This document shows, one piece after another, positions 3,424 to 25,950 of a stretch of 64,000 nucleotides of DNA. Positions within the stretch are counted from its first letter, which is position 1. Each line of letters begins with the position of its first letter. Made by a program: the position numbers and the translations under genes. A model generated the notes under the pieces. The model worked only from the letters and a program-made list of their open reading frames with translations, had not been told where the DNA came from and did not search any database. Source of the stretch: Halanaeroarchaeum sp. HSR-CO (GTDB lineage: Archaea; Halobacteriota; Halobacteria; Halobacteriales; Halobacteriaceae); the NCBI RefSeq assembly GCF_024972755.1, contig NZ_CP087724.1, positions 2,356,001-2,420,000 of the forward strand. The letters are read 5' to 3'.

Positions 3424-4838
3424 GCGAGGGGACGCTCTACGACAACGTGTGGGACCGCCACCGCGTGACCCAGCTACCGACGGGCCAGGACCAGCTGTTC
3501 GTGGGGCTCCACCTCATCCACGAGGTGACCAGCCCGCAGGCGTTCGGGATGCTCAACGAGCGCGACATCGACGTCGCGTTCCCGGACCGCACTCACGCAA
3601 CGGTCGACCACATCGTGCCGACCGAGGACCGAACCCGGCCCTTCGACGACGAGGCCGCAGAGGAGATGCTCGAGGCCCTGGAGATCAACGTCCAGCGGGC
3701 GGGCATCGACTTCGCGGACCCGGAGAGTGGCAACCAGGGCATCGTCCACGTCATCGGCCCGGAGCAGGGACTCACCCAGCCCGGCATGACCGTCGTCTGT
3801 GGCGACAGCCACACCGCCACCCACGGCGCGTTCGGCGCCATCGCTTTCGGCATCGGGACGAGTCAGATTCGCGACGTCCTCGCGACCGGCTCCATCGCCA
3901 TGGCGAAACAGGCCGTCCGCAAGGTCGAGGTCACCGGCGAACTCGGCCCGGCCGTCACCGCCAAGGACGTCGTGTTGACCATCATTCGGGAACTCGGGAC
4001 CGACGGCGGCGTCGGCTACGTCTACGAGTACGGCGGCGAGGTCGTCGAGAACATGGAAATGCACGAGCGGATGACGCTGTGCAACATGTCCATCGAGGGC
4101 GGCGCCCGCGCGGGCTACGTCAACCCAGACGAGACCACCTACGACTACCTCGAAGGACGCGAGGCGGTACCAGAAGGCGAGGAGTTCGAGGAGCTGAAAG
4201 CCTACTGGGAGTCCATCCGCTCCGATTCGGACGCCACATACGACGACGTGGTCACGATCGACGGGTCGGCCATCGAACCGACCGTCACCTGGGGGACCAC
4301 CCCGGGGCAGGCCATGGGCATCAGCGAGACGGTGCCGGCACTCGAGGACCTGCCAGAAGACAAACGCGAGCCCGCAGAGCGAGCCATGGAGCACATGGGC
4401 GTCGAACCCGGGGACTCGATGGTGGGCTATCCCATCGACGTCGCCTTCCTCGGCTCCTGTACGAACGGTCGATTGCCCGACCTCCGCGAGGCCGCCGCAA
4501 TCGTCGAAGGCAACGAGCTCCACCCTGACGTCCGTGGGCTGGTCGTCCCCGGCAGCCAGCGTGTGAAGGCCGCAGCAGAGGCCGAAGGCCTCGACGAGGT
4601 GTTCCGCGACGCCGGTTTCGAGTGGCGCGGTGCCGGCTGTTCGATGTGTCTGGGCATGAACGACGACCAGCTGGTCGGCGACGAGGTCTCCGCTTCTTCG
4701 TCGAACCGCAACTTCGTTGGACGGCAGGGCAGTCCAGACGGGAAGACGGTCCTGATGAACCCACAGATGGTCGCCGCCGCCGGCATCGTCGGCGAGGTAA
4801 CCGACGTCCGTACCCTGGAGGAGGTGGTGGAGGTATGA
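3420..4838 (+). CDS. leuC: 3-isopropylmalate dehydratase large subunit
   Basis: Aconitase-superfamily subunit that isomerises 2-isopropylmalate to 3-isopropylmalate with LeuD. It is 472 aa. The active-site motif GDSHTATHG lies near residue 128. The 4Fe-4S ligands are in GSCTNGR near residue 345 and in CSMCLG near residue 405. The gene is coupled at both ends by ATGA overlaps, with the small ORF upstream and leuD downstream. Homoaconitase or another aconitase paralogue is made unlikely by the leu/ilv context. Confidence 0.95.
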
Positions 4839-24402: not shown

Positions 24403-24732
24403 TTACGCGCTGATCGAGGCGACGAGTTCCTCGGCGACGACGTCGGGCGAGAGCAGGTCCGGGTCGACGGCGAGGTCGAGTTGTCCGGTGACGAACTCGG
24501 GGACGGAGTCGGTGGTGTAGAAGACGATACGGATCGATGGGTGACGGTCCTTGGCGACGGGGACGGCGGTCGCCTCCGCGGCGTCGGTGATGACGAGGAG
24601 GTCGGCGTCCGCGAGGCCCGCGTCGTCGAGTGACTCGCCGGTCGCGAGGCCCTCGACGCGGGTGGTTTCGACGTCGTGGTCCGCGAGCGCCGCTTCGATG
24701 CCGCGGTCCGGGCCGACGATGACTGCCTGCAT
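24403..24732 (-). CDS. Haloarchaeal conserved protein (DUF7126-like)
   Basis: A 109-aa protein with a Rossmann-like start MQAVIVGPDRGIEAALADHD and a DADLLVITDAAEATAVPVA core, then FVTGQLDLAVDPDLLSPDVV. I recall haloarchaeal relatives under DUF7126, sometimes mislabelled as CTP synthetase. No catalytic residues are evident. It resembles a receiver-like or nucleotide-binding half fold. It abuts the 70-bp tandem repeat array on its upstream side. Confidence 0.65.
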   Translation of the reverse strand: MQAVIVGPDRGIEAALADHDVETTRVEGLATGESLDDAGLADADLLVITDAAEATAVPVAKDRHPSIRIVFYTTDSVPEFVTGQLDLAVDPDLLSPDVVAEELVASISA

Positions 24733-24772
24733 GGTCGTCTCTCGGTGGGGAGTAGGTATGAATTTGGTGTAT

Positions 24773-25150
24773 GCGAGGTTCGAGCGATAGCGAGAACCTC
24801 GATATGGCGAACGCGGAGCGAGGGACGAGCGATGCGTGAGCTGCGAGGTTCGAGCGACAGCGAGAACCTCGATATGGCGAACGCGGAGCGAGGGACGAGC
24901 GATGCGTGAGCTGCGAGGTTCGAGCGACAGCGAGAACCTCGATATGGCGAACGCGGAGCGAGGGACGAGCGATGCGTGAGCTGCGAGGTTCGAGCGACAG
25001 CGAGAACCTCGATATGGCGAACGCGGAGCGAGGGACGAGCGATGCGTGAGCTGCGAGGTTCGAGCGACAGCGAGAACCTCGATATGGCGAACGCGGAGCG
25101 AGGGACGAGCGATGCGTGAGCTGCGAGGCTCGAGCGATAGCGAGAACCTC
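24773..25150. repeat. Five tandem 70-bp repeats plus a 28-bp partial copy
   Basis: Copies start at 24773, 24843, 24913, 24983 and 25053, and a partial copy spans 25123-25150. Copies 2-5 are identical; copy 1 and the partial differ by single bases (gcgata for gcgaca, and ggctc for ggttc). Each unit holds an 8-bp perfect inverted repeat, CGAGGTTC and GAACCTCG, around a 12-base loop. Seventy is not a multiple of 3, so the array cannot be a coding repeat. There is no variable spacer, which excludes CRISPR. It fills the upstream flank of the gene at 24403. Confidence 0.95.
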
Positions 25151-25245
25151 CCCTATTGTGAATGCGCAGCGACGGACAGATCATCCCGATCTCCGCGGAA
25201 GTCCCCATCGACGAATGCGGTCCACAGTTCGGAGGGTCCACTCGT

Positions 25246-25258
25246 CCCCCCCCCCCCC
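25246..25258. repeat. Poly-C tract, 13 bases
   Basis: A run of 13 C lies 17 bp beyond the 3' end of the minus-strand gene at 25275-25484. On that strand it is a G-run just after the stop. Such tracts are rare here and are prone to length change or assembly error. Confidence 0.9.
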
Positions 25259-25274
25259 GTCATCCACCCGAAAT

Positions 25275-25484
25275 CTATCCCTCGATCTGCCCGATGCTGC
25301 GTTCGGCCGGGACGTCCCCAGCGTCCACTGGCGCGAGGTGGAGCAGTCGCCCCTCGCCGGACGCCATCCACTCCTCGCCCGTCGCTTCGTCCCAGCAACA
25401 GACTTCCCAGACGCCGGCCTCCAGTCGCTCCCATATCTCCTCGTCGGAGTAGAACGATCCGTTCGAGCACCGGTAGTATCTCAT
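25275..25484 (-). CDS. Small Cys/Trp-rich protein, unknown function
   Basis: Sixty-nine residues with MRYYRCSNGSFYSDEEIWER, then VWEVCCWDEATGEEWMASGE and an acidic C-terminus. The content of Trp, Tyr and Cys (three Cys) is high for a haloarchaeon. No family is recognised. It lies between the 70-bp repeats and a second small Zn-finger gene on the same strand, and it may be co-transcribed with that gene. Start chosen as MRYYRC; MVSM nine bases upstream is an alternative. Confidence 0.5.
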   Translation of the reverse strand: MRYYRCSNGSFYSDEEIWERLEAGVWEVCCWDEATGEEWMASGEGRLLHLAPVDAGDVPAERSIGQIEG

Positions 25485-25553
25485 AGAGACCACCCTCGCT
25501 CGACCGACTCCCGTCTCGACACGGTAGCCATGACAGTGGCTGCGAGTGAATCG

Positions 25554-25939: not shown

Positions 25940-25950
25940 CCCCCCCCCCC
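25940..25950. repeat. Poly-C tract, 11 bases, G-rich on the minus strand
   Basis: Eleven C lie 14 bp beyond the stop of the bat-type gene. On its transcript the segment becomes GGGG, GGTGGGTGGG and then the G-run, a sequence able to form a G-quadruplex. Confidence 0.85.

Follow-up and report, generated by a model that had tools for sequence, protein, structure and literature searches.

The window, a 64,000-nucleotide stretch of the Halanaeroarchaeum sp. HSR-CO genome (contig NZ_CP087724.1, positions 2,356,001 to 2,420,000), contains a tandem array of 70-bp units next to the gene for a small protein (Table 1). Genes were called using a codon-usage-based caller made for this analysis, and the calls are separate from the published annotation. 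An earlier note on this DNA had placed the array upstream of a DUF7126-like gene, and the Pfam match to PF23443 (E = 8.7e-40) confirmed this identity. The same note had the array adjoined by two small Cys-rich genes; one of these is a zinc-ribbon gene (DUF7563 in Pfam), but the neighboring 72-aa ORF has three Cys, and "Cys-rich" is a generous description of it. The poly-C tract said to lie nearby is present as a run of 13 C at 25246-25258; together with a run of 11 C at 25940-25950, also on the + strand, it flanks two small genes upstream of the array. Nothing except the juxtaposition of these features favors the suggestion that the region is a hot spot.

Table 1. Features of the array and its surroundings (positions are those of the window)
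Feature	Position	Strand	Basis
DUF7126 gene, 109 aa, downstream of array	24403..24732	-	Pfam PF23443
Putative core promoter region of DUF7126 gene, 41 bp	24733..24773	-	putative assignment
AT-rich TATA-like AAATTCATA in putative DUF7126 promoter	24765-24757	-	putative assignment
Tandem array, 70-bp unit, 5.4 copies, 99% match	24772..25150	+ (purine-rich strand)	TRF, unit alignment
Hairpin A of unit 1, CGAGGTTC-GA-GC(GATA)GC-GA-GAACCTCG	24774..24801	+	
Spacer ATATG between hairpins A and B, unit 1; recurs every 70 bp	24802..24806	+	
Hairpin B, unit 1; recurs every 70 bp	24807..24841	+	sequence, DNA fold
Unit 6, degenerate distal, 82% over unit positions 1-55	25122..25177	+	unit alignment
72-aa ORF, 3' end toward distal side of array, no Pfam family	25275..25493	-	

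TRF recovered the array at a period of 70, and TRF together with the unit alignment supports that the units tile back to back, as the earlier note had stated. Because they do so without unique spacers, a CRISPR array was ruled out. The units had been called virtually identical, which holds for units 2 to 5, whereas unit 1 departs from these at a single base, unit position 17, where it has T instead of C. The degenerate unit 6 is partial, with a C in the stem and the same T as unit 1 at position 17, and then decays. The gene caller predicted no gene in the array, in agreement with the claim that it is non-coding, although the argument originally given, the unit length of 70, is no proof by itself.

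The 8-bp perfect inverted repeat CGAGGTTC/GAACCTCG was found in units 1 to 5. Rather than being the hairpin of the unit, however, it is the outer stem of a longer hairpin (hairpin A), which contains GA/GA mismatches and is tipped by C(GACA)G; hairpin A reads CGAGGTTC-GA-GC(GACA)GC-GA-GAACCTCG in units 2 to 5, with starts at 24844, 24914, 24984, and 25054. The DNA fold also revealed a second, imperfect hairpin that had been missed when one hairpin per unit was counted, and the unit on the + strand therefore consists of hairpin A, the spacer, and hairpin B. Hairpin B reads GC-GA-ACGCG-GA-GC-GA-G(GGA)C-GA-GC-GA-TGCGT-GA-GC, with one G.T pair, three GA/GA layers, and a G(GGA)C tip; its innermost layer is our own reading and is absent from the predicted fold. 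When one unit was folded as DNA, the + strand formed both hairpins (-14.5 kcal/mol, z -1.87), and the - strand formed hairpin A but lacked hairpin B (-11.1, z -1.20); folding of the whole array did not stand out from that of shuffled sequences (z -0.89 and -0.10). We note that the weak z-scores of the unit and the array (-1.87 and -0.89) count against the idea that a DNA fold is what matters here. Tandem GA/GA pairs are confined to one strand; the opposite strand would carry TC/TC.

In extraordinarily stable DNA mini-hairpins, G-C pairs carry a loop of the form GNA or GNNA as the cap, with a Tm of 78 C for GCGAAGC (PMC4686876, excerpt; sources marked in this way are represented by part of their text). 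The array units have such a GNA/GNNA loop, closed by C-G on a G-C-rich stem. The module shares with d(GCGAAGC) the GNA/GNNA loop on at least two G-C pairs, but differs in being a genome-wide repeat with GA/GA layers, whereas the mini-hairpins are short DNA fragments for aptamer design (PMC4686876, excerpt). The GNNA tetraloop of hairpin A in the window is found in 4 of 110 perfect tips, and this also counts against a DNA fold; GA/GA combined with tetraloops was not enriched in general (2 of 44 at a stem of at least 6), and the GNNA form of the window is thus a minority form. Using a strict motif, defined as GA-xCGN(N)AGx'-GA with x pairing with x' and at least three outer pairs, we found the five array units and no other site in the 64-kb window. 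A chance origin of the repeated hairpin in the array is excluded.

Elsewhere in this genome, the 35-mer of hairpin B recurs identically at G000:C1:594788 and with a 94% match at 2513282, and at these two sites, its neighboring hairpins are different ones. Similarly, hairpins A and B alternate in the matches in relatives, with stems of other sequence. Based on an alignment of 32 modules, the module comprises hairpin A, an AT-rich spacer of ~5 nt, and hairpin B on the purine strand, and has a length of 59-68 nt. These 32 modules (31 out of a set of 40 and one from locus L045) were used to train the covariance model R1, which identified modules in 24 of 26 genomes with 1-109 matches each, part of these by construction as the training modules come from the same genomes. 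There were 38 matches in this genome, among which may be the units of the array itself. Of the eleven Halobacterium genomes, ten had 32-109 matches each and G014 had a single one, and the two genomes from outside the order had none; E-values were rough, and at most 150 candidates were scored per genome. A short pattern, with counts summed by hand, had 124 matches in 24 genomes of the order, where its reversed controls had 17; for 124 genomes from outside the order, the corresponding counts were 47 and 28. The named exact matches of the hairpin-B pattern (10 stretches) are all from Halobacterium or Halarchaeum. Outside the order, genome G153 has nine GACCGNAGGGAGC matches, at 4090 and 4130 of contig C3 among other places, and no control match. 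Genome G029, which belongs to another haloarchaeal family, has a different repeat, GCGGCGACCGAAGGGAGCCGCGAGGCTGGGGAGGCGTGAGG, with the same hairpin tip (loci L154 and L156). We conclude that the array unit is one module of a dispersed bipartite palindromic family that is defined by its fold. The term "satellite" in the earlier note describes the tandem array, but is too narrow for a unit that belongs to a family with these 38 matches in the genome.

The hairpin tip also stands out in unselected sequence. In 40 stretches of 20 kb (800 kb; L081-L120), we counted hairpins built of 5 or more outer pairs, then a 2x2 mismatch, then 2 bp closing a loop of 3 nt. The largest mismatch class among these triloop hairpins was GA/GA (27 of 101), the next class having 3 members, while one shuffled set had no GA/GA among 67. 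C(GNA)G tips were present in 16 of the 27 GA/GA hairpins and in 1 of the 74 hairpins in other mismatch classes. At triloops with a stem of at least 7, C(GNA)G caps made up 19 of 53 between genes and 6 of 187 inside genes; for C(GNNA)G caps, the excess between genes was slight (4 of 36 tetraloops, compared to 11 of 177 in genes). Fifteen of the 17 strict elements in these stretches lie outside called genes.

Covariation was analyzed at an orthologous locus, where a hairpin occupies the same place in 10 of 11 readable Halobacterium genomes, 3' of a gene that, judging by our reading of its translation, is presumably isoaspartyl-peptidase-like. In the ten hairpins, 8 of 11 pairs change on both sides, involving 23 of 110 cells, and 99.1% of the cells are paired. 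Four of five covariation measures exceeded all 500 shuffles; the fifth (further pair types) showed no excess and was reached by 389 of 500. The GA/GA columns are invariant in all ten hairpins. This alignment (A1) was chosen by position, while the modules in a second alignment (A2) were chosen for pairing, and the pairing percentages in A2 are consequently inflated. Because palindrome correction by template switching would erase GA/GA, it appears to be the fold, or a process sparing the tip, that has been kept.

A distance of 41 bp separates the array from the DUF7126 start codon downstream of it, and the polarity of the array matches that of other promoter-abutting modules. In the first set of loci, from which a separate 3'-end class (9 of 55 clusters) was left out of the cluster counts, 10 of 18 multi-hairpin clusters, including that in the window, begin 38-44 bp upstream of a divergent start codon, while none of 15 with the opposite polarity lies within 50 bp (p 5e-4). 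A bracket of 35-50 bp, fixed after this first data set, was then applied to 60 newly fetched loci, of which 17 had no cluster of at least two hairpins and were dropped, leaving 47 clusters at 43 loci. In this new set, the purine-strand 5' end of the module was found in the 35-50 bp bracket upstream of a start codon in 18 of 35 cases, and in 1 of 33 with the opposite polarity (p 6e-6); some of these promoters are orthologs counted twice, and by eye six gene-start pairs recur among 29 loci. Using the earlier cut of at most 50 bp, the counts were 21 of 35 and 6 of 33, with four of those six overlapping gene calls. At stop codons of the new loci, it is likewise the 5' end of the module that abuts (7 of 11 versus 1 of 11 with opposite polarity; p 0.024). 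The 29 promoters between module and gene look canonical, with an AT fraction of 0.90 at -27 and AT-rich sequence at -10/-11.

The 44 clusters for which both flanking genes were known lie between divergent (23), tandem (20), and convergent (1) genes, compared to an expectation of 13-16, 22-23, and 5-9, respectively (p 0.0004-0.02); for the first set (n = 26), the numbers were 8, 16, and 2. Pairing declines away from the gene-abutting end in 27 of 40 intervals (p 0.04; comparing halves, p 0.005), as determined using newly fetched intervals because the rule for cluster starts biased the first set. An orientation bias relative to the replication strand was not supported (1 of 6 genomes at p 0.044) and thus lends no support to single-stranding at forks. 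An inverted-repeat survey described a general archaeal peak near -50 (PMC13155455, excerpt), and upstream enrichment is therefore not new in itself; what is new here is the fixed distance, the polarity, the tip, and the covariation. The spacing near -40 could be the closest position that spares the promoter, an explanation that leaves the polarity unaccounted for.

The 260 bp preceding the DUF7126 gene lacked the strict hairpin in all 29 other loci examined, including that of the one congeneric genome. Together with the identity of units 2 to 5, this absence supports the proposal in the earlier note of a recent amplification or a homogenization, and it also weakens the case for a function of the array itself. 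That note had set, as one half of its refuting condition, a unit that is single-copy or absent in all relatives; among the matches listed from 58 other genomes, those to the array are indeed partial (~69-83% identity over the array part), but the architecture of the unit is widespread. We read the array as a recent local amplification of a promoter-abutting palindromic element.

Our leading explanation, which we hold tentatively, is that a dispersed palindromic module was recently amplified in tandem and that its folded purine-strand DNA sits at the upstream promoter edge and serves there as a torsional element or as a boundary. The array would have arisen by slippage or by unequal recombination involving the 70-bp direct repeats. 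The selected form would be the DNA fold of the purine strand, negative supercoiling at promoters, above all between divergent ones, would promote extrusion of the hairpins, and an extruded hairpin would act just outside BRE/TATA. The amplification would then provide more of this element in front of the DUF7126 promoter. For the module in general, an element defined by its fold, located at gene boundaries and acting as DNA under negative supercoiling, is the most likely reading.

A serious, if more doubtful, alternative is that the module is a selfish palindromic element resembling Rickettsia palindromic elements (RPE) or REP, with no function for the host, and that some enzyme prefers DNA beside bound TFB/TBP or grows arrays there. 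In agreement with this, the element differs in presence at orthologous sites: at one promoter, it is found in 6 of 13 Halobacterium genomes, and an in-frame insert of a module (RVAERSEATERASG..., ~54 bp) in the isoaspartyl-peptidase-like gene occurs in 2 of 11 readable genomes (G023 and G019; loci L195 and L196). The decay of distal units and an array of the module that appears to lie inside a coding frame point in the same direction; the latter, in G023, has 5.5 copies of 63 bp (L140 2058-2404), which we read as 21-aa repeats opening a membrane-protein frame. By contrast, the long retention with compensatory change at the 3' end of one gene argues against a purely selfish element, as does the lack of a target duplication by eye at the single readable insert. 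The candidate enzyme, a Y1 transposase (PF01797), was found in 14 of the 18 genomes searched; it was not found in G016, G019, G020, and G022, which carry 60, 62, 48, and 32 module matches, respectively. Moreover, a GA-tip hairpin was present at only 2 of 30 tnpA loci (30 of 41 PF01797 matches were examined as loci), and on this basis, ends derived from IS200/IS605 elements (PATE) were ruled out.

Among known repeats, the PATEs and SMRs of Haloquadratum are likewise haloarchaeal, short, palindromic, and transposase-free without target duplication, and IS605-type elements have a single-stranded DNA intermediate (PMC3119063, excerpt). PATEs differ in having near-terminal palindromes around a core (PMC3119063, excerpt), and the GA-tip hairpin is missing from most of the tnpA loci examined. 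REP/BIME are multi-copy palindromes, short and intergenic, that frequently occur in pairs or in tandem and show complementary stem changes in subfamilies (PMC3733652, excerpt), and the module resembles them in this and in having many extragenic palindromic copies per genome. In contrast to REP, the stems of the module vary freely while tip and GA/GA are kept, the modules are often anchored at ~-40 of promoters, and they persist where no Y1 transposase was found. A terminal GTAG/CGTC tag was not seen by eye in the conserved columns of the 32 modules or at the edge of the 29 promoter-abutting copies; with this tag lacking and the RAYT (PF01797) missing in 4 of 18 genomes, REP membership was ruled out. 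The text on RepRanger contains no word beginning with "halo", and its genome table, as far as shown, includes no haloarchaeon (PMC12306157, excerpt). The palindromic elements of Rickettsia occur both between genes and in frame inside genes (PMC10969869, excerpt); the module is likewise found between genes, and two coding cases of it were seen. It differs from these ~150-bp bacterial families in being an archaeal module of ~60 bp defined by structure (PMC10969869, excerpt). RPE membership was ruled out based on the length of 59-68 nt and the variable stems, compared with conserved families of ~150 bp. The module thus resembles REP and the Rickettsia elements and is a member of neither. Among the open-licence PMC papers searched, none was recognized as describing it. 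Integron attC sites are folded hairpins of variable sequence and strand-specific form, in arrays that grow from one end. Their likeness to the module is one of analogy only; module arrays have no cassettes.

That the purine strand instead yields RNA hairpins, in the form of 3'-end, antisense, or leader structures, appears unlikely. It would fit with some sense-oriented copies located behind stop codons or tRNA genes, and with a related hairpin class that precedes poly-T. Also, of 24 GNA-capped hairpins that lack GA/GA, 19 lie downstream of a gene, 11 of them between convergent genes, which suits RNA 3' ends and speaks against a DNA reading. The purine strand folded better than its complement for 30 of 32 modules with RNA parameters, and for 28 of 32 with DNA parameters. 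In a wobble test, G.T exceeded A.C by 13 to 5 in 7-bp stems with one mismatch, but the two other counts were level (17 versus 18 and 18 versus 17), and the result is mixed between RNA and DNA. Against RNA, sense and antisense orientations are nearly balanced for clusters between tandem genes (10 versus 10 in the new loci; 7 versus 9 in the first set), clusters are rare between convergent genes, and the 36 intergenic tetraloops include few RNA-type caps (GNRA, 2; TTCG/CGAA, 1). Furthermore, no AT-rich box was placed in the 29 promoter-abutting copies so as to drive a purine-strand transcript from the element, and the three Rfam 15 matches at E of at most 10 in 9 loci were all far below gathering, so that a known structured RNA was ruled out. 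Based on the caps and the missing sense bias, we lean towards DNA over RNA.

Repeats of several kinds share this hairpin tip. Directly 3' of a tRNA-Gly gene, this genome has a second array of 7.1 copies of 111 bp (G000:C1:1878024-1878807; L061 1425-2208), the units of which repeat the 3' end of the tRNA and include a T-arm in inverted orientation; their hairpin, GA-ACGAAGT-GA, has a tip of the same type. GA-tip hairpins also follow other tRNA genes of this genome (L062, L064, L067, L069, L070, and L075); several include copies of the tRNA 3' end, and the purine strand is mostly that of the tRNA sense. A multi-copy Halobacterium 3'-end element, GGTTCACCGCGCGACCGNAGGGAGCGCGGGC and its variants, has the same tip, mostly followed by T-runs (L123, L125, L127, L131, L134, L136, L147, and L151). 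According to a survey of prokaryotic satellites, most repeats in Halobacteria seem to be parts of genes (PMC6749651, excerpt).

A self-templating repeat, in which the tip GA-xCGNAGx'-GA would fold back as a super-stable DNA primer from which a polymerase would copy the 5' arm into the 3' arm, is a mechanism to which we assign a small probability. Such copying would keep the arms paired despite free sequence change and retain the GA/GA mismatches, and it would duplicate neighboring sequence, e.g., tRNA ends, and add modules at the promoter-side end. The C-G to G-C pair swaps that we observed, which are impossible via a single wobble step, are consistent with it, although some G.T cells do occur; the polar decay and the inverted T-arm in the 111-bp array are also consistent with it.

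An ordinary slippage satellite with an incidental hairpin would explain the identical units and an array not found at the DUF7126 gene in relatives. We regard it as very unlikely, as it is contradicted by the dispersed family, in which architecture, covariation, and position recur across genomes, and as similar module arrays recur in G023 (7.5 copies of 77 bp and 3.1 copies of 80 bp, located 50 and 39 bp from start codons, respectively). Finally, an assembly duplication is highly improbable given the variant common to units 1 and 6 and absent from units 2 to 5, as well as the independent arrays in another genome (G023).

If the reading of the module as a folded DNA element holds, haloarchaea would have a class of repeats defined by DNA fold rather than by sequence, with coevolving arms, and often placed within a few bp of a fixed distance outside core promoters. 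GNA-capped DNA hairpins would thereby be found in nature at the scale of whole genomes, and any action of cruciform DNA at promoters of archaea could be tested directly in a genus that can be cultured. The array in the window would then represent a local change in copy number of one such element, ahead of a single gene.
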